Assembly (NCBI GenBank): GCA_025358085.1
Contig: JANYKT010000045.1
Span: 1 to 39,623 of the forward strand
Direction of reading: 5' to 3'
Source of the DNA: Deltaproteobacteria bacterium
GTDB taxonomy: Bacteria > Myxococcota > Myxococcia > Myxococcales > 40CM-4-68-19
Length of the DNA: 39,623 nt
A program made the translations under genes and the position numbers. The notes under the pieces were generated by a model. The model was given only the letters and a program-made list of their open reading frames with translations. It was not told where the DNA came from and made no database searches. This document shows, in pieces, positions 1,421 through 16,127 of this stretch (position 1 is the first letter of the stretch; every line of letters starts with the position of its first letter).

Positions 1421-4240
1421 CTACTGGACGCTGACGTCGTCGAACTGCGTGTACGTCGGGTCGCCCGCGTAGTTGTCGTCGTGATTGACGAGCGTGAGCG
1501 TGTAGCTCGTGCCCGGCTTCACGGCCGCGCTCACCTTGGTCCAGCCCGCGTTGTTGCAGGTCTTGGCCAGGATGGTCGTGGTGGTGGTGCCGGCCGTCAG
1601 CGTGGCGGTGGCCCAGTCATACGTGAGCGTGTCGGGGCAGTGGTTGTTGTACCAGAAGCTCACTGTGCTGGAGCCCGCTGGCGCAATGAACGACTGCGAT
1701 GCGCTGCTGTCGGTGGTCGGCGTGGTCCCGCCAAGCTGCGCCGCATACGTGCCCGTGTGGGAGGCCGTGCTGATGGTGGCGGTGCCCGCGGTGGTCCAGC
1801 CGGAGTAGCTGCCGGTCTCGAAGCCGCCGTTGACGATCGGGTTCGGCGGCGGGGGCGGCGGCGAGCCCGAGATAACGACGTCGTCATACTGGGTGTACGT
1901 CGGGTCGCCCGCGTAGTTGTCGTCGTGGCTGGTGAGCGTCAGCGTGTACGAGTGACTCGAGGTCAGGGCCGAGGAGACCTGCGTCCAGGTGCCAGTGTTC
2001 GAGCAGGTGTTGGCGAGGAGCGTGGTCGTGGCCGCCGTGGTGTTGTCCTTCAGCGAGGCAGTCGCCCAGTCGTAGGTCACCGAGTCCGGGCAATGCACGT
2101 TGAAATAGAAGGACAGCGTGCCGCCGGTCGAGGGCGCCGTGAAGGTCTGGGCGATCGAGCTGTCGCCGTTCGTCGGGCTGGTGCCGCCGACCACGGCCGC
2201 GTAGCTGCCGGTGTGGGCCGAGCCGCCAACGCTGGTGGTGCCGGCCGCAGTCCAGCCGCTCAAGGTTCCAGTCTCGAAGCCACCATTCACGATGCCGCCG
2301 CCTCCGCCGCCGCCGGACGCGTTGACCGTCAGCGAGATGGAGGCGCTGTGCGAGCCCGAGGTTGCCGAGCCGGTGACGGTCACGGTCGCCGCACCCGTGG
2401 TCGCCGTCGAGGAGGCGGTCAGCGTCAGGGTCGAGCTGCCGCCCGAGGTGACGCTGGCCGGGCTGAACGACGCGGTCACGCCCGCGGGCAGGCCGCTTGC
2501 GGAGAGGCTCACCGTCTGCGCGCTTCCGGCGGTGGTGGCCGTGGTGATGGTGCTGGTGCCCGAGGCTCCCTGCGTGATCGTCACGCTGGTGGGGCTGGCG
2601 GTGATCGAGAAGTCATTGGCCGGCGGGGTGACGGCGCCGCAGCCAGACAACTTGAATGAGCCGACGCGCGTGTGCCAGTTGAAGGTGCCGCTCGTGGCCA
2701 GGTACTCGGTCGTGTACCAGAAGGTGCAGTCGTCGGAAGGGTCCACCGCGATGTTCGAGTAGTCGCCCCAACGAGAGAGCGTCGTGCCCTGCGAGCCGCT
2801 GCCGTTCTGCAGCGTGCCTTCGCCCTGGCCCATGGTGCCAGCCGGGTCGCCGGCGTTGCGACCGGTGAAGCGGATGCCCGGGACCGACGCCGACGACGAG
2901 ATGCTGAAGCCCAGGCCGATGCCGCCCGAGCCGTCCATCGCGGCCGAGCCCATCCAGCGATACGCGGAGTCCGGCGCGTAGGTGCCCTGCTGGAAGATGG
3001 TCGGGCTGGCGTTGGGGCTGCGGATTTCGTACCAGCGAACGCCGGTCGAGCTGCCGGCGGTGATGCTGTGGTTGGTGACCAGCGATTCGTGGTCGCCGAA
3101 ATTACGGTACTGGAGGCGGAACATCATGCGGTCCGCCAGCGAGTCGAGCTGCTGGGTGGTGCCGGACTGCGGGATGCAAGTACCGCCCGCGCAGGCTTCC
3201 GCGAAGGCCGCGACCGGGAGCACGGTGGGGCCGGTGAAGGTCGAGTTCGCCGGCGTGGTCCAATCGACGTGAAACTTCCACAGCGCGAGGCCGTTGGGGT
3301 TCGCGTCCATGCCGACGATAAACTCCGGCTCGCCGACGGCCGGCTGGCGGGTGCCGTCGAGGTCGGCCGGCAGGAGGCCGCCGAAGCTCGTGCTGGTGTC
3401 GAAGCACTGCTGGGTGGCGGCGGCGCCGGTGAGCATCGCGCTGCGGTTCATCGCGCAGACCTTGGCGCCCTGGAAAGTCTGGGGGCTGCCGCCGAAGACG
3501 TTGTAGGTCCAGTAATACGCGTCGGGCCACACGCCCGCCTTGCCGTAATCGTTGAAGCCCGTATAGGTGAAGTCATAACGGTAATAAGCGCCGGTCGGGT
3601 CGCTGGTCTGCGAGACCGCGACGCACTGGTGATAATTGGGGTCGGGGTTGGTGACCGCGAACTGCGAGATGAACCAGCGATCGGCGATCGGGTCGTACAG
3701 CACAATCGGGTCGCCGTCGTTGTCCGTCTGGCAGAGGCCTCCGAATCCAGCGAAGAGCGAGTTGATCGGGACCGGACCGTGGAGCGCCGTGCCGGTCTTG
3801 TTCCAGATCATCAAGTCCTGATTGACCGTCTGCACGTAATGATTCGGGCCCACGTCGCCGTTGGTGTCGGGCGGCGCTCCGGTGACGCTGAACGTGCCGC
3901 TCGGCCCGGTGAAGCCCTGGCCAACACCTTCCCAATTGTGCGTGACGGTGGGGGCCGCGAGGAGGGCAATGAAAGCAGACTGTCGGACCGCGTCGCCGGC
4001 TTGCGCCTGGCTGGTGTTGAAGTGGCGCGGGATCCTTTTGACTTCATGTTCCGGGTTGGTGTTCACGTCCGGCGCCCGCATCAGATTCAGCGGCGCGGAA
4101 AGGTCGTGATGCGCTGCAAGTGAAACGGAAGGGGAGCGAAGCTCGACAGAGTTGCTGTCGTCGGCTTCGCCGCCTGGCTTTCCCGCACAGGCGGTCGCCG
4201 CAAAGAGTGCAATTAATGTTAGCGAGTTGCGCTTCAGCAT
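1421..4240 (-). CDS. Secreted lipoprotein with Ig-like domain and two tandem C-terminal jelly-roll modules (939 aa)
   Basis: The start shows a lipoprotein-type signal: a charged MLKRN, a hydrophobic stretch, then a lipobox-like ATAC with Cys18, so it is probably anchored to the outer membrane or cell surface. Residues 100-535 form a large domain of unknown family with repeated Trp/Tyr/Asp motifs, perhaps propeller-like. Residues 541-640 are Ser/Thr-rich and Ig-like (SVTITQG...[11 protein letters not shown]). After a Gly run come two homologous modules, about 650-791 and 802-939, each opening [10 protein letters not shown] and ending in [13 protein letters not shown](Y/F)DDV. They are joined by a poly-Pro linker and look like carbohydrate-binding jelly rolls. 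It is divergent from the metalloprotease at 4487. The catalytic role, if any, is unknown. Confidence 0.8.
1424..2293 (-). repeat. Tandem duplication encoding the two C-terminal modules
   Basis: Positions 1868-2293 and 1424-1837 encode two copies of the same module of about 140 residues. Shared landmarks are NGGFETG, an HTG.YAA.(V/L)GGT strand, HCPD..TYDWATA.L and [13 protein letters not shown]. The two copies are clearly diverged, so this is an old domain duplication rather than recent DNA slippage. Each copy has two Cys (HCPD and a later TC.N), which could pair within the module. Confidence 0.75.
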
Positions 4241-4486
4241 CTAGACCACCCAAGGGTTGTGGGACGCAAATTGGCGTCAAATGCGATTAGAATCAATGCG
4301 CAACCGGAGAATGATCTGCAATACCGTGGGTGAATGTATGGAAAGCGCCGCAAGTCGGCGGTGTTCCCTCTTGTTCCAGATTTCCGATAGTTAGACCGGA
4401 GGTAAGTGTTTATCGCTCCGTCAACTGACGGATCCGTATTGTCCGATTTAAGGAACGGACTTCCGCGTCTGCTGGTTGTCTCCGGG

Positions 4487-6766
4487 ATGCCTCGGACAAT
4501 CGCTGTCTGTCTCGTGCTCGTCGTTTCGGGCTGCGGTCCGTTCGTCTTCGGACCGCCTCCACGGATCGAAGCGTTCGCTGCCGACGCTGCGACCGTCGGC
4601 TGGGGCGATCCTCTGCAGCTTCGCTGGCACGTCAGCTTGGCCAGCGAAGTCTCCCTCTCCGGAGTCGGCCGCGTTGGTCTTGAGGGCGCCGTCGTCCGGC
4701 CCGTTGCCGCGCAGTCTTATGTGCTCACCGCGCGCGGACTCGGCGGCGTGGTGGTCTCGCAGCCGATCGCGATCACGCTTGGGCCCAGCCTCGCCGTTGC
4801 TGCTGGCGTGATGACCGATGGCGGCGCGCCGGGCAGCATCTTCGTCGCCAGGCTGCGCTCGGCGGCAGGCGCGGCCCCGTCCGACGATGTGCTCGTCACC
4901 ATCTCGGCCGATGCCCCTGGCTTCCCGCTGCGAACGCTCTGCGCTGCCCACGCGTCCACTTGCGAATTGCGCGCCCCCTCGGTAGCGCCAGCGCAGACCT
5001 TCTCCGCGACGGCCACGCTGACCGGGACCAAGGTCACCACGCGCTTTGCCCTGGCGCCCGGTGCGCTGGATCCGGCGCAAGGAATCGCCGCCAGCCCGGA
5101 CGGGGTCTCGTGGAGCGCGGTGCGTGGCGCGGTCGCGTATCGCGTGCAGGCGATGGACCTGGACAGCGCCGAGCCCGCAGGCGCGGCGATGGTGGTCCGC
5201 GCCACCAGCGCCGCGCTGCCGGTCACGGCGTCTGGCGTCTGGGTCGAGGCGCTCGCCGCCGAACCCGCCGATGCGAGCGTGGTCCTCCCCGCACCGCACG
5301 TGTCGCGCGCCACGGGCTTCGCCAGCGCGGGCCGGCAGGGCGGCGCGGGCGCGGCCTGGCAGATCTTCTCTCCGGCGGACTTCCAGGGCGATGTGCTCCA
5401 CGCCGACTTCGGCAAGCTGGGGGCAGACGAGCACCTGGCTGTACTCCTGATCAACGCTTCCGGGCCCGACCGCGCCGACGCGCAGGTGGACGTCAGCGGC
5501 ACCGCATCCCCCGCAGCTCCCGCGCGCAGCCCCGCGCTGGTGGCGGCTGCGCGCCCCGTCGACGCAAGCCACGACCTCTCGCGTTCAGTCCAGGACGCGC
5601 TGCTCCGCCAGGCCATCTCCGAAGGCGTCGCGCTCGCGCCCGAGCCGAGCGAGATCCTCTCGCAGACCAGCTTCTGCACCGCTCGCGGCCTCAGTACCGG
5701 CGACCGCGTTCGCAAGGCCGCGTCCCTCGTCCTGGCGACGCCGCACGGCCTCTTCTACGTCGACGACGAAGACAGTGCGCATTACCCGGCCAGCTTCTGG
5801 GCCACCATCGGGCCCATCTTTGAAGAGCGCATCTATCCCGTCGATACGCGTGTCTTCGGCGCCGAGAGCGATGTCGATCGCAATGGCAAATTAACCCTCT
5901 TCTTCACGCACGAGCTCGGCGCGCATCTGGATGGCGGCTGGCTGATTGGATACTTCGGGAACAATGACCTGCTGCGCGTGCGCGACCAGTCGCGCGATTG
6001 CAGCGGCACGGCTTCCAATCACGCCGATATCCTTTATATGAACGACATTGCCAATGGCCAGGCCAACGGATACGGCAGTAGCGACCTTGCCGGCAGCGTC
6101 TTCCCTGCCACCATTGCGCATGAACTGCAGCACCTGATCAATCTGAATCAGCGATGCCTGCTGCGCGCCTGCACCGAGCCCGAGGCCACCTGGGTCAACG
6201 AGGGATTGTCCAAAGTCGCCGAGGATCTGACCGGCTTCGGCTGGAATGGCGCGCAAGGCCGCTGGGAAGGCGCGCAATATCTCGCGCGCGCCGAAGGCGC
6301 ATTGAAGGGATATGACGGACGTAGCTTGACGGCATGGGAAGGCGATCCAATCGGCAACTATCAAGCCGCACATAGCTTCATGCGGTATTTCACCGACCGC
6401 TCTGGCGGCTCGTTCGCGGGAAATCTCACGCAGCAGGCGGGCCTCACGCACACGCTGGGGATGCCGCTGCCGCGGGCGCTGGCCGAGTGGGCCACGGCAC
6501 TGCTCTTCTCCAACGAGACCAGCTCGCCTTTGCCGTCCTTTTCCTTCTCGGGCACGGGGTGGTCGCCGTTCCACGCGCGGCTGCGGTATCTGGACTATCG
6601 CGACCTGTCCCCCGGGGGCGCCGTGGCTTCCCTGCGCGCCGACGGCTTCGGCGCCTTCGTCAGCGGCGCAGGACTGGGCGCAGCAGCCCGCATCACGGTC
6701 CGCAGCAGTGCGGCCGTGAAGCCGCATGTCGTGGTGGTGAAGTTCAGCGGGGTCCTGCCGCGGTAG
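4487..6766 (+). CDS. Surface lipoprotein metalloprotease with HExxH (hyicolysin/M30-like, 759 aa)
   Basis: This is a predicted extracytoplasmic zinc protease. The zinc motif HELQH lies at residues 545-549, followed about 20 residues later by WVNEGLSKVAED, whose Glu is a candidate third ligand; this arrangement recalls family M30. A DVDRNGKLTLFFTHELG stretch upstream fits the same family. I chose the ATG at 4487 because it opens directly into a lipoprotein signal (MPRTIAVCLVLVVSGCG, lipobox VSGC). A GTG at 4406 would add 27 residues ahead of the signal, and its GGAGGT lies too close to it. Residues 30-330 look like beta-rich accessory domains. It ends 12 bp from the convergent ABC gene. Confidence 0.8.
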   Translation: MPRTIAVCLVLVVSGCGPFVFGPPPRIEAFAADAATVGWGDPLQLRWHVSLASEVSLSGVGRVGLEGAVVRPVAAQSYVLTARGLGGVVVSQPIAITLGPSLAVAAGVMTDGGAPGSIFVARLRSAAGAAPSDDVLVTISADAPGFPLRTLCAAHASTCELRAPSVAPAQTFSATATLTGTKVTTRFALAPGALDPAQGIAASPDGVSWSAVRGAVAYRVQAMDLDSAEPAGAAMVVRATSAALPVTASGVWVEALAAEPADASVVLPAPHVSRATGFASAGRQGGAGAAWQIFSPADFQGDVLHADFGKLGADEHLAVLLINASGPDRADAQVDVSGTASPAAPARSPALVAAARPVDASHDLSRSVQDALLRQAISEGVALAPEPSEILSQTSFCTARGLSTGDRVRKAASLVLATPHGLFYVDDEDSAHYPASFWATIGPIFEERIYPVDTRVFGAESDVDRNGKLTLFFTHELGAHLDGGWLIGYFGNNDLLRVRDQSRDCSGTASNHADILYMNDIANGQANGYGSSDLAGSVFPATIAHELQHLINLNQRCLLRACTEPEATWVNEGLSKVAEDLTGFGWNGAQGRWEGAQYLARAEGALKGYDGRSLTAWEGDPIGNYQAAHSFMRYFTDRSGGSFAGNLTQQAGLTHTLGMPLPRALAEWATALLFSNETSSPLPSFSFSGTGWSPFHARLRYLDYRDLSPGGAVASLRADGFGAFVSGAGLGAAARITVRSSAAVKPHVVVVKFSGVLPR

Positions 6767-11637: not shown

Positions 11638-12189
11638 TACGGAGCACAGCCAGGCTGCCATCCGTTCGGCCGGCCAACCCGTACCGACCGGTGCCCGTGT
11701 CTGAGCGAGAAGCGCTACAAGTTCTGCTGTGCGAAAGGCGTTCGACGAGCCACTACGTTCCGCTACGCCAAGTTCGCTGAGGGCCGTGAACGAACGCGCG
11801 GCCCCCTGGACCTTCCGCGAGCCGTGCGAAAGCTCGACCTCTTCGAGCTGATTATCCTCGACGATATCGGCTACGTCGGACAGTCCCCCGACGAGGCCGA
11901 GGTCCTCTTCACGCTCATGGCCGAGCGCTACGAGCGTCGCTCCATGCTCATCGCCTCGAACCTCGTCTTCAGCCAATGGGACCGCATCTTCAAGAATCCG
12001 ATGGCGACGGCCGCGGCCATCGACCGCCTCGTCCATCACGCCGTCATTCTGGAATTCGACGTCCCGAGCTACCGCACCGAGGACGCCAAGAAACGCGGCG
12101 CCTCAAAGTCCGTCCCCAAGCTCAACGACAACTACTCGAAGCCCGACGACAACTACCCCACCGCAGCGCAGTCCAAAGAGCAGGCGTAG
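11638..12189 (+). pseudogene. istB: Truncated IS21-type helper ATPase (istB remnant) preceded by an SEC-C motif
   Basis: The 3' part encodes the C-terminal half of IstB, the AAA+ helper ATPase of IS21-family transposons: LIILDDIGYV (Walker B), the ERYERRSMLIASNL sensor region, FSQWDRIF and DRLVHHAVILEF. The Walker A half is missing. In the same open frame, upstream of the first usable GTG (11824), lies RCPCLSEKRYKFCCAKG (about 11692-11739), an SEC-C zinc motif (CxC-x8-CC) not part of IstB. The frame opens after a stop at 11637 without a good start. It looks like a junction of two gene fragments rather than a working protein. The IS21 end repeats follow at 12216. Confidence 0.75.
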
Positions 12190-12368: not shown

Positions 12369-12920
12369 TTAACCTGGCTTGAGCAGCTTTTCGTACCAAC
12401 GGCATCGAGGATCGTTCCTCGGCGGCGCAAAGTTTCCTCGCCAGCGAAGGTCACTCCCGATCTTGGACAATTCTGCCTCTGACCAAGCGAGTGCACGCGC
12501 GGCATCGGCGACGACGTCAAGGGTGGAGACGAGTTCTATTGAAGGAAACAGTTCGCGCGCAATGCGGCGTTCCTTTCGATCGTCAGTCATGAGCGGCACC
12601 TTCAAGACGCCTGCGAGCGCGATGCACGAGGCGTCTGCGTCGTTGATGCGCGCGGCAGCATCAACAAAGGCCTCAAGGGTTGCGTCGTCGGTGAGCGATC
12701 GCATTTCAAGATGACCTGCGAGACGTAGCACGTCCGCGCTAACTGGCTCCTTGCTCCGCTGGCCATCGGAATCGGGAGGGGTCCAGAGCATCAGGGCTTC
12801 AACGCGCACCTGCGGCGTATCCAGTAACTGTATTTTCAATGCTTGCACAATCTCGCGCGCTCTTCGCGTGGCGAGAAGGTTGAGGGTGCAGCACGTGTCG
12901 ATGACAATCAGACCGATCAT
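12369..12920 (-). CDS. PIN-domain nuclease, probable toxin (183 aa)
   Basis: PIN proteins are Mg-dependent RNases, most often toxins. The acidic residues are visible: Asp8 in LIVIDTCC, a central Glu in RVEALMLW, Asp in INDADASCIALAG and Asp in MTDDRKERR. The 183-aa length suits a single PIN domain with a short C-terminal tail. It starts 7 bp after the XRE-ImmA gene on the same strand, as last gene of the cassette. XRE-ImmA proteins are known partners of PIN-like toxins (for example the DUF4411 group), so the neighbour is the likely antitoxin or regulator. Whether it acts alone or as effector of the QueC-like system is unknown. Confidence 0.85.
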   Translation of the reverse strand: MIGLIVIDTCCTLNLLATRRAREIVQALKIQLLDTPQVRVEALMLWTPPDSDGQRSKEPVSADVLRLAGHLEMRSLTDDATLEAFVDAAARINDADASCIALAGVLKVPLMTDDRKERRIARELFPSIELVSTLDVVADAARALAWSEAELSKIGSDLRWRGNFAPPRNDPRCRWYEKLLKPG

Positions 12921-12926
12921 TTGGTG

Positions 12927-14126
12927 TCAAATCTGCCGAAGGTCTGCGCCATTGAAATCGACGCGCAGTAGCATTCCTTCTCCGAGAGATATTCGCTCAC
13001 GTTCTTGGAATACTGCGCGAGCGCTTGCGATATCCGTGGCGAGGACTTCAGCTAACTCAGTCTCGCTCAGTTTCTCCTGGCCGTAGGCTGACACGGCCAA
13101 TTCGATATATCGCTCTGGAAGGCCAAGACGAACCCGAGACGGATGCGGCGCAGCCTCCGGTGCGCCAAGGTCCTTCGGGCGCAGGCCGCTCTGGGTGATC
13201 TTTTCGTAGCTACCGCGTGGCAGCAGTCGAAGCTCCTCAAGTCGGTGCGCCATCGCTCGAAACGAGACGCCAAACGTCTTTGCGAGGGCGTGCAAGTCGA
13301 GCGGGGTAAACCTACCTGACCTGCACCGCTCGGTGAAGCGCTTACGAACCCCCGCCGTCGGCAGCAGGAACTCCTTCGTAAAGGCCTCTGGGAAGAGCTC
13401 GGCGGGCTGTTGAATTAGTTCGTCAACCTCCAACACGTCCCCGGCCTCGCGGTCTCGAAGGAAATGTCCGAGTTCGTGCGTCAATGACCACCGCTGGCGC
13501 TCAACGGGCTCAGCGCAGTTCACCCCTACGCATCCACCGATTTCGTCGCTCCAGATGAGGAATGCGGCGAGTTTCGACGGCAGCCGATCCAGGTAGAAGA
13601 TGCGAAGGCCAGCCTCCGTCTCGAATCGTTCGTCGATCTCGAAAACTGGTTCCTCGCCGAGCCCGAGCATTCCACGCACCGTACGTGCTGCATCTTCTCC
13701 CTCCAACTTGGGATCGAGCCAATGAGTGGCGCCTGACTCCGTCCGGTAGGTCTGAAGGGTCTCGAGCGGAGCGCGCACGCGTTGGAGCCCATGCAAACGT
13801 TCGAGCTCGAGGTAACGCCCGCCTAATTTGCGGAGGCGCTCGACGGCCATCCGAACGGGCGCCGTGTTCCGATCAGCCCCGGTCATTCGGAAACGAGGGG
13901 AAACCTCCGCGCGCACCGATCCTTCACGCAACAGATCGTGAACGGTAAGTCCGAGGAGGTCGGCAAGCTTGACCAACTCGGCGTTGGACGGCCGCCGTTC
14001 CCCTTTCTCGAGGGCGACAATCGTGGTCCGCGCTACAACAAGCTTCTCAGCCACTTGTGCCTGGGTAAGCTTGGCCCGTTTTCGTGCGTCGGCGAGGCGT
14101 TCACCCAACTGCTGGGAAGAGGGCAC
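12927..14126 (-). CDS. XRE-family regulator fused to ImmA/IrrE metallopeptidase (399 aa)
   Basis: Residues 6-62 form a Cro/CI helix-turn-helix (LTQAQVAEKLVVARTTIVALEKGERRPS). After a linker, residues 160-310 form an ImmA/IrrE (COG2856) zinc peptidase with HELGH at 217-221 and a downstream EAFTKEFLLP that fits the third ligand helix. ImmA-type proteases cleave repressors when triggered by DNA damage or phage; fused to XRE they control mobile elements and toxin-antitoxin pairs. The GTG at 14126 has AAAGG 9 bases upstream and overlaps the QueC-like gene by 26 bp, implying coupled translation; the frame continues upstream only as shadow of that gene. It probably binds the palindromes near 16076-16127. 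Confidence 0.9.
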   Translation of the reverse strand: MPSSQQLGERLADARKRAKLTQAQVAEKLVVARTTIVALEKGERRPSNAELVKLADLLGLTVHDLLREGSVRAEVSPRFRMTGADRNTAPVRMAVERLRKLGGRYLELERLHGLQRVRAPLETLQTYRTESGATHWLDPKLEGEDAARTVRGMLGLGEEPVFEIDERFETEAGLRIFYLDRLPSKLAAFLIWSDEIGGCVGVNCAEPVERQRWSLTHELGHFLRDREAGDVLEVDELIQQPAELFPEAFTKEFLLPTAGVRKRFTERCRSGRFTPLDLHALAKTFGVSFRAMAHRLEELRLLPRGSYEKITQSGLRPKDLGAPEAAPHPSRVRLGLPERYIELAVSAYGQEKLSETELAEVLATDIASARAVFQERERISLGEGMLLRVDFNGADLRQI

Positions 14127-15486
14127 GGTTGCCAACCTTTCGATGTTCGCGAACTCGCTCGCGGACGGTGGGACGAGCTGCAGCCAAGTACGCCTGAATC
14201 TCGTCTGCGTATCTCTGGTACATCGCGAATACCTCAATTCGCGCCGCAGCCTTGGGCGGCTCAATGAGCGGAAGGGTCGCGGCAAACCTTGCGTCGGGGT
14301 CGAGATCGAGGAGCCCTTCGAAGTCTCGGCATTCACGCAAGCGGAGCGCATGGCTTTCGAAAGAATTGACCTCGTAGACACCGTGCTGGCGGGTGGCCAC
14401 GTCTCGATACCTGGTCGGGTCCGGATGCAGCCCTCCGGCATGCAATGCAATCCTGCGAAATACGCATGACGTGCAAAGTCCGCAGTGCAGCATCGTGTCG
14501 GGCTTGTGTCCTTCGCCCTCGTCACAGGACATGGAGACGCGCGCGAGACCGCCCAGCGCCGCACCCGCAAGGCTGCACAGCTCCCCCTTCGTATGGAGAA
14601 AGAACGGAGCTTCGACGCGTACCTGTCCATCCAAAACTCTTGCGGTGAGCTCATTGAACAAGAGGAGCGTTCTCGGATGCATTGCGCGCGTTGCTTGCGC
14701 ACCGACCTGCGCAGAAGAGATCGGGAGATTGATGCATCCGACTCCGGTTTCGTAAATGCTAAAAGAGGGGAGCTGCAGTTGGTATGCGGTCGTTGCGCCC
14801 ATTGCGAGGAACAACAATCCGCGACTACGTTGAGACGGTTCCATCAGGCTCCGCGGTCGCTCGACGCCGCGAAGCTGGTGATCGAGTTTCAGCCAAGTCG
14901 CTACGGCACCGACCGACCGAAGCATCTCTAAGGCAGCCTTCTGCGCGCCACCTCGCACCTCGTTTCCGCACGCGGAGACCGCCAGAACGGACCTTCCATC
15001 GCGCTTGCTCCTGGCGAAGAGGCCTGCTACCGAGTCGAGCCCGCCACTGAAAAGGGCAACCTCATCTATCTTCTCTACGCGCTCAAGACCGAGCAGCTGC
15101 TGCTGAACGGGACTCGCGGCGATGCCTTTGAAGCGCAATTTCCACGCATCGTCCGTCATGAAGGAAAGCAGCTGCGTTAGCAGAGGCGTTACGGCGGTCC
15201 AACGTTCTGGGCATTCAACGGCGATTTCGAGACTCAGTGAGCGCTGCCAAGCCAGATCTCGCTGTGGGCGAGTTCCCTTTGGAGGCCGTCTTGGAGATAG
15301 TCGATCCGCAGCGAGGACAGCGGCCATGACGCGCAGAAAATCACGCTCGCAAGGACGGGAGGGTCCCAGGCTTGACGTCCTTTGAACGCCGTCCAGCGAC
15401 ATCGTTGCGGTTGGCTTCCAGCCTTCCTCTGCGTTGCAATGGATAGCTCCATCCCGTCCGAATCGATATTCGTAGTCAGCACGCAT
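14101..15486 (-). CDS. QueC/QatC-like PP-loop ATPase (461 aa)
   Basis: QueC makes 7-cyano-7-deazaguanine (preQ0); defence relatives (QatC, and Cap9 of type IV CBASS) use the same fold in antiphage systems. Visible here: PP-loop LFSGGLDS (SGGLDS at 147-152), an ETGVGCINLPIS...AMHP segment typical of the QatC group, and a QueC-style zinc site of Cys321, Cys335, Cys338 and Cys341 (CGLCTSCVFRR). At 461 aa it is about twice housekeeping QueC and near QatC in length, with a 140-residue N-terminal extension. No QueD, QueE, QueF, QatA, QatB or TatD-like gene is near. It overlaps both neighbours, so it belongs to the cassette. The chemistry is inferred from the fold. Confidence 0.85.
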   Translation of the reverse strand: MRADYEYRFGRDGAIHCNAEEGWKPTATMSLDGVQRTSSLGPSRPCERDFLRVMAAVLAADRLSPRRPPKGTRPQRDLAWQRSLSLEIAVECPERWTAVTPLLTQLLSFMTDDAWKLRFKGIAASPVQQQLLGLERVEKIDEVALFSGGLDSVAGLFARSKRDGRSVLAVSACGNEVRGGAQKAALEMLRSVGAVATWLKLDHQLRGVERPRSLMEPSQRSRGLLFLAMGATTAYQLQLPSFSIYETGVGCINLPISSAQVGAQATRAMHPRTLLLFNELTARVLDGQVRVEAPFFLHTKGELCSLAGAALGGLARVSMSCDEGEGHKPDTMLHCGLCTSCVFRRIALHAGGLHPDPTRYRDVATRQHGVYEVNSFESHALRLRECRDFEGLLDLDPDARFAATLPLIEPPKAAARIEVFAMYQRYADEIQAYLAAARPTVRERVREHRKVGNRALFPAVG

Positions 15487-16051
15487 CTGGTCCTCCGCGC
15501 AGATCAGTATCTGGCTTCAAGTCAGCGCGAGGACGCGCTAGTCCCAGCCGTTTCGCGTCCGGGCGTGCGTAAAGGATGGCTGCGGCCGCGGCGGCGACGG
15601 GAGCCAGGACGTCCCGCGCTTTCTGGAGGAGTGCAGTGCCGTGCTCCTCGAGAAAACCTCCGCGACCACACAAGATTGCCCGCTCGAGGAGCGCAGCGCA
15701 AAAGCGCTCAAGGACCTTGGGGAACCCGTATTCACCAGCCAGGATGGCGCATTCGACAACAGGCCGAAGGATGAGATCTAATTCGGTGCAGCCCGGCCCC
15801 AGGCTTGCCTCTCTGATTTGCCTTGGGCTGCCTTCGGTCTCGAGTCTAGCCAGCAACGGCGAGCCCCGAAGCGCCGCGAGCTCAACTGCAACCACGGGAA
15901 GCGAGGGAATGCCCCCTGCAGCATTCAGCAAGACGTCCAAGGTCCTTGAGGCAAGGAAGGGATCCCACTTGTTGCCCGCCAAGGCACGGAAAACGGCGTC
16001 GGCGGCGCCGCGACCCAACTTGGTGACCGTTCCGAAGATGTCGCCATCCAT
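15476..16051 (-). CDS. First cassette gene: unknown Ala/Leu-rich helical protein (191 aa)
   Basis: I do not recognise a family. The protein is rich in Ala, Leu and Arg, apparently all helical, with no signal peptide; the AAAAAILYA stretch is too short and interrupted to call a membrane segment. It overlaps the QueC-like gene by 11 bp. It opens MDGDIFGTVTKLG and ends in a charged tail. There is no Shine-Dalgarno sequence before the ATG at 16051, and the predicted transcript start falls on it, so translation may be leaderless. It does not show QatB features that I know. The likely role is a structural partner or sensor of the QueC-like enzyme, from position only. Confidence 0.7.
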   Translation of the reverse strand: MDGDIFGTVTKLGRGAADAVFRALAGNKWDPFLASRTLDVLLNAAGGIPSLPVVAVELAALRGSPLLARLETEGSPRQIREASLGPGCTELDLILRPVVECAILAGEYGFPKVLERFCAALLERAILCGRGGFLEEHGTALLQKARDVLAPVAAAAAAILYARPDAKRLGLARPRADLKPDTDLRGGPDAC

Positions 16052-16057
16052 AAGCAG

Positions 16058-16087
16058 TTTGTAACAACGCTACGATGACAATGTCAA
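16058..16087 (-). promoter_or_regulatory. Sigma-70-type promoter of the QueC/ImmA/PIN cassette
   Basis: On the minus strand TTGACA (16087-16082, a perfect -35) is followed after 18 bp by TACAAA (16063-16058, a 4/6 -10). The start point would fall about 7 bases on, at or next to the A of the ATG at 16051, giving a leaderless message. Confidence 0.55.
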
Positions 16088-16127
16088 GAAGATGGCGATT
16101 AGTTCGGTCTTAGTGACGACATTGTCG
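16076..16127. promoter_or_regulatory. Paired 11-bp palindromes, candidate operator of the cassette
   Basis: TGACAATGTCA (16076-16086) and CGACATTGTCG (16117-16127) are both perfect dyads sharing GACA-N-TGTC, with centres 41 bp apart, about four helical turns. The first overlaps the -35 box. Spacing and position suit cooperative binding of a Cro/CI-like repressor, and the XRE-ImmA protein of the same operon is the obvious candidate. Confidence 0.6.

Follow-up and report, generated by a model that had tools for sequence, protein, structure and literature searches.

A conserved dyad operator, most likely autoregulatory, before a QatC-like, XRE-ImmA and PIN gene cassette of Myxococcota and Alphaproteobacteria

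The window analysed here, a 39,623-nt stretch of DNA from a Deltaproteobacteria bacterium of the Myxococcota (contig JANYKT010000045.1), carries four tightly packed minus-strand genes behind one promoter: a small gene A, a QatC-like enzyme, an XRE-ImmA fusion and a PIN-domain protein. The four-gene cassette is probably an anti-phage or toxin-antitoxin module. Its genes and the features of its control region are, in window coordinates:

15476..16051, minus strand: gene A, 191 aa, without a match in Pfam, NCBIfam or PADLOC
14101..15486, minus strand: QatC-like (QueC family) enzyme, 461 aa, with an SGGLDS loop and a CGxCxxC..RR zinc motif
12927..14126, minus strand: XRE-ImmA fusion with a GTG start, HTH_3 and Peptidase_M78 domains and HELGH; presumed repressor and antitoxin
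12369..12920, minus strand: PIN-domain protein, 183 aa, presumed toxin, whose fold matches VapC/PIN structures
16076..16086, no strand: candidate inner operator, perfect dyad TGACAATGTCA, which holds the -35 box of the cassette promoter and is kept as TTGACWTTGTCAG in all relatives
16117..16127, no strand: candidate outer operator, perfect dyad CGACATTGTCG, 41 bp upstream of the inner centre; the 41-42 bp spacing recurs in four relatives (L009, L010, L012 and L014)
16082..16087, minus strand: -35 hexamer TTGACA, by sequence, inside the inner dyad
16058..16063, minus strand: -10 hexamer TACAAA, after an 18-bp spacer, extended, with TGT before it
16051, minus strand: predicted transcription start on the A of the ATG, 7 nt after the -10 hexamer; leaderless by prediction

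The QatC-like protein matches the QatC profiles of PADLOC (4.6e-47) and NCBIfam (9.8e-50, yet below the equivalog cut-off) as well as the PDB QatC chains 9vlk/9zee (3.6e-43). Elsewhere the host genome has three genes of the PTPS family (PF01242) and a canonical QueC, so that the cassette enzyme is a second, specialised copy and the host can probably supply the deazaguanine precursor itself. The XRE-ImmA fusion, the only recognised HTH/DNA-binding protein of the cassette, resembles RmrA (2.1e-27), CapP (4.3e-13) and also CapH in PADLOC. By sequence alone the PIN assignment is weak; the top of the structure match list for its model (pLDDT 82) is PIN/VapC-type throughout, with modest scores, and the acidic residues D8, E41, D96 and D113/D114 are invariant and in the expected order. 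Just downstream of the cassette, at 11824-12189 on the plus strand, lies a remnant of an IS21 IstB ATPase (PF01695, 1.9e-22), a sign of a mobile neighbourhood.

The original prediction described two perfect 11-bp dyads with centres 41 bp apart, and direct reading of the letters confirms it to the base: both are odd dyads, centred at 16081 and 16122. The inner one covers the TTGACA -35, which is followed after 18 bp by the TACAAA -10, again as predicted. This -10 is weak (TATAAT is matched at four of six positions) and counts as extended, with TG one base upstream; a consensus promoter scanner, which demands T at the last -10 position, did not call the cassette promoter. On the minus strand, TACAAA is followed by CTGCTT and then by the ATG at 16051, before which there is no ribosome site. 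The sequence GACANTGTC occurs twice in the window, both times at the dyads, against 0.33 expected; 5 of 100 shuffles also reach two. Genome-wide (5.42 Mb, 44 occurrences), 0.016 pairs at most 45 bp apart are expected by chance, and the host genome holds no second close dyad pair. A reading of the dyads as an RNA hairpin or terminator was rejected: there is no minus-strand terminator-like site there.

Around 30 relatives with the same gene order were found in Myxococcota and Alphaproteobacteria. A search with A in 195 genomes of the phylum picked out G030 and G093, which have the same four genes, and a profile of XRE-ImmA added three more Myxococcales/Deltaproteobacteria assemblies (L012-L014). 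Alphaproteobacterial members came from tblastn of XRE-ImmA and A against plasmids and from profile searches of Pseudomonadota genomes; they lie on plasmids and in genomes of Rhizobium, Agrobacterium, Sinorhizobium, Ensifer, Mesorhizobium, Methylocystis, Pannonibacter, Labrenzia, Bosea, Roseomonas, Sphingobium, Pseudorhizobium and Shinella, and many relatives are located on conjugative plasmids. Identity to the window XRE-ImmA protein is 48-65% among myxobacterial and 29-33% among alphaproteobacterial members. The A families of the two groups are not joined by profile comparison, and gene order is the only link between them. Queried with the window sequence at E 0.1, plasmids gave no relative of A; genome contigs scanned for close relatives of the QatC protein gave no match, and viral contigs gave no XRE-ImmA relative at the sensitivity used. 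One further match to A (L011/G010, E 1.4e-4) was judged spurious from the ORF map alone.

The N-terminus is the most conserved part of A, M[ST]DGP[HFY] in nearly all alphaproteobacterial members (L021-L052) and xDxDxF in the myxobacterial ones. Since relatives begin with the same xDxDxF, the ATG at 16051 is probably the true start of A in the window. In two relatives, the A start is set too far upstream (L028 1489, annotated; L010 7365, a mechanical ORF): the misplaced ATG lies upstream of the inner operator and the conserved A start downstream of it.

Absence of the dyads among relatives had been named beforehand as an outcome that would overturn the original prediction. This test left the prediction standing: an inner site precedes every related cassette, and a few of these sites have one or two mismatches. 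Aligned over 27 loci (four rhizobial members with the 10-bp form TGACATGTCA are left out), the consensus is TTGACWTTGTCAG, with GAC of the left half and GT of the right half invariant in all 27. A perfect GAC-N3-GTC within 100 bp upstream of the start is found in 25 of the 27 loci, against a mean of 0.5 and a maximum of 4 in shuffles. The right half is conserved as strongly as the -35 half, while the flanks carry almost no information; being on average only 27% identical between loci, they indicate that the inner site is kept by selection and not by recent common descent. Conservation of the -35 alone was rejected as an explanation, because the right half TGTC is no promoter element. In L010 and L034 the operator is present without a good TTGACA -35. 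As in autoregulated XRE operators generally, inverted-repeat sites overlap the core promoter of the operon that encodes the regulator and are conserved before orthologous operons. On this comparative evidence, the dyads are a real and deeply conserved control site, from Myxococcota to Alphaproteobacteria.

An offset scan for a second site gave one main peak per group. Five of the six myxobacterial loci have it at -41/-42 bp (window, CGACAATGTCG; L009, GGACAATGTCG; L010, TGACAAAGTCC; L012, CAACAAAGTCG; L014, AGACAAAGTCG), and it is weak or absent in L013. In most alphaproteobacterial members the second site is about 30 bp away and weak or one-sided, often a half-site: ATGTCA at -30 bp where A starts with MTDGPF, and TGACAT at +30/31 bp, adjoining the ribosome site, where A starts with MSDGPH. 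The peaks stand roughly 4.6-4.7 sd above other offsets, a descriptive figure, since the sequences were already known when the groups were drawn up. Such spacings correspond to 3 or 4 helical turns, as would be expected for two dimers on about one face of the helix.

That the predicted start falls on an ATG devoid of a ribosome site agrees with the promoter geometry, the start being a prediction from the position of the -10. The same rule predicts leaders of 0 nt in the window, 1 nt in L012 and L013 and 12 nt in L009, so a leaderless start appears likely for the window, L012 and L013; this part of the original prediction does not extend to alphaproteobacterial members, with predicted leaders of 10-24 nt, mostly with a Shine-Dalgarno sequence. 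A leaderless reading is reasonable for this cassette, but it is a lineage feature of only some myxobacterial members and lies outside the mechanism.

Which protein would bind the dyads can be approached from relatives in which the cassette is broken and from XRE-ImmA genes outside it. Most of QatC is gone from L012, where A is joined to the QatC tail, and from L014, where the opening codons of A lead, in another frame, into the final third of QatC; both relatives retain XRE-ImmA, PIN and the two sites 41 bp apart. Two different internal deletions (L012 1366-1820, L014 6540-7000) join A to the QatC end. Both are metagenome assemblies, so that the deletions may be misassembly; otherwise they suggest that loss of the other genes leaves XRE-ImmA and PIN maintained in the manner of a toxin-antitoxin module. 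Four XRE-ImmA genes outside cassettes (L037, L038, L050 and L051) have no GAC-N3-GTC dyad over a TTGACA, and the recognition helices of their products differ from those of the cassette proteins. On the Salinibacter plasmid L037, at 3983-5852, XRE-ImmA is followed by a small gene, with neither QatC nor the cassette operator, and this relative can serve as an outgroup.

All 32 cassette XRE-ImmA proteins share the recognition helix [AGS]R[TP]T, and the helix covaries with a base of the operator. Of 11 SRPT helices 8 go with GACT, and of 21 ARTT-type helices 19 go with GACA (p = 0.0006 without kinship correction); written as TTGAC[A/T], SRPT is mostly paired with TTGACTTTGTCA and ARTT mostly with TTGACATTGTCA. 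The myxobacterial L013 sits on the SRPT side, and L009 and L010 are exceptions on the ARTT side. Shared ancestry accounts for part of this covariation. Because the dyads are kept with XRE-ImmA and PIN in relatives that lose most of QatC and are missing before the four XRE-ImmA genes outside cassettes, they are most likely autoregulatory operators of the cassette, bound by XRE-ImmA. The predicted role of XRE-ImmA as repressor of its own operon has strong indirect support: it is the sole recognised HTH protein of the cassette, its site survives where A and QatC are lost, helix and operator covary, and XRE-ImmA genes with other helices are without the operator; the binding itself we infer from these patterns. 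Half-sites of Cro/C1-type dimers are usually about 10 bp apart, and GAC-N3-GTC is short by comparison, which counts against the assignment.

Several known systems share parts of this architecture. In RosmerTA, ImmA-type antitoxins of diverse toxins are associated with PIN-like domains (PMC10440598); the window protein likewise combines an HTH with ImmA/M78, as RmrA does, and sits beside a presumed toxin, which by analogy it presumably neutralises. Unlike in RosmerTA, the pair forms the downstream half of an operon of four genes, the first two being A and a QatC-like enzyme. This upstream half recalls Qat (QatABCD): the enzyme fits the description of QatC, motifs included, and directly follows a small partner as QatC follows QatB (PMC13279940, PMC13329287). 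The conserved A start brings to mind MGTS, the essential N-terminus of QatB on which QatC is proposed to act. The cassette is nevertheless not a Qat system, because the QatA ATPase and the QatD TatD nuclease are missing here and in relatives, and A starts with MDGD (MSDGPH, MTDGPF or MPDRD in relatives) instead of MGTS. A has no sequence match to the QatB structure chains, and its AlphaFold model (pLDDT 56) is too poor for a fold search or a comparison with QatB. Only about one third of QatC-cluster members lie beside qatA or qatD (PMC13329287), so other QatC settings must exist.

The regulatory half has its own precedents. CapH, an HTH repressor, and CapP, a peptidase, act at the promoters of CBASS and other immune operons, with CapP cleaving CapH when activated by ssDNA (PMC13373217, PMC10904395). 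The cassette pairs the same domains, with the difference that CapH and CapP are two separate promoter-proximal genes and XRE-ImmA is one fused protein, third in the operon. Likewise, DdrO/PprI (IrrE) and ImmR/ImmA place a Cro/C1-type repressor under an M78 metallopeptidase, as two separate proteins and not as a fusion; structures of DdrO and of the ICEBs1 regulator match the HTH profile of XRE-ImmA. The DdrO site also contains TGTCA/TGACA half-sites, in the opposite order. Literature searches for a combination of QatC/QueC, XRE, ImmA and PIN found no description, and neither XRE nor ImmA is mentioned in the main texts of PMC13329287 and of the QatBC structure paper PMC13279940. The finding is most likely an XRE operator under autoregulation, before a cassette of QatC, XRE-ImmA and PIN for which the literature searched offered no description.

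Other explanations of the dyads differ widely in how probable we consider them. TTGACA alone is expected in promoters, and two unrelated palindromes, the inner one apparently conserved only through its -35, could in principle look like an operator; the equal conservation of the TGTC half and the 25 of 27 loci against 0.5 expected refute this reading, to which we give practically no weight. Host regulators sometimes take over the promoters of mobile cassettes, and a regulator from outside the cassette might bind the dyads in place of XRE-ImmA. Such a takeover is quite improbable here, as the same site precedes the cassette in Myxococcota and in Alphaproteobacteria, remains beside XRE-ImmA and PIN in members with damaged A and QatC, and forms no other close pair in the host genome. 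Slightly less improbable, though still unlikely, is a switch like that of the C proteins of restriction-modification systems, where one dimer would activate and two would repress, giving a delayed switch when a plasmid-borne cassette enters a new host. C-protein boxes are short dyads of the GAC...GTC type, as are the dyads here. A site over the -35 together with a second one upstream also fits such a switch; the HTH profile matches, among other structures, C.BclI and C.AhdI, and many relatives are plasmid-borne. Against it, the site that is strong and universal lies across the -35 and looks like that of a repressor, and the other site is weak or lies downstream in many members.

A far more serious contender, close to an even chance but on the lower side of it, accepts XRE-ImmA as the binder and takes it for an ordinary type II antitoxin and autorepressor, with or without PIN (conditional cooperativity), whose ImmA protease acts elsewhere or is unused for derepression. 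The XRE-ImmA and PIN genes are directly adjacent, ImmA-domain antitoxins of diverse toxins with PIN-like partners have been noted (PMC10440598), and the operator persists in L012 and L014, where XRE-ImmA and PIN are the only whole genes. HExxH is intact in all 32 cassette XRE-ImmA proteins, which argues that proteolysis matters.

In the mechanism that we propose, 16058-16127 would be the control region of the operon comprising A, the qatC-like gene, XRE-ImmA and PIN. One XRE-ImmA dimer would occupy TTGACWTTGTCAG, across the -35, and another the site four helical turns upstream, on about the same helix face, and together they would keep RNA polymerase off, so that the whole operon, PIN nuclease included, is held at a low, autoregulated level. 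That the dyads are the operator and XRE-ImmA its binder we hold with considerable confidence. A net repressive effect is probable, with somewhat less assurance; a universal site over the -35 with a helper site 3-4 turns away has the anatomy of an autorepressor. Exit from repression would most likely come from inactivation of XRE-ImmA, either through cleavage that involves its ImmA part, triggered by a signal of infection or DNA damage, or through titration by its PIN partner. The predicted lifting of repression by ImmA cleavage is plausible by analogy with CapH/CapP, DdrO/PprI and ImmR/ImmA; as the actual route of release, proteolysis is a tentative proposal that we rate at a little under even.

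We can also speculate, as an outside chance, that the cassette is an immune module of an undescribed kind: the QatC-type enzyme would modify the conserved N-terminus of A, a new counterpart of QatB, with a 7-deazaguanine, XRE-ImmA would read the state of this pair or of the infected cell, and its cleavage of itself or of the antitoxin would both open the operators and free the PIN nuclease. The 13-bp site provides a cross-phylum regulatory signature for finding more QatC-containing cassettes, and the cassette promoter is a ready reporter for learning what XRE-ImmA proteins sense. The cassette ties together two fields so far apart, protein modification by the QueC family and ImmA-type antitoxins that guard nuclease toxins.
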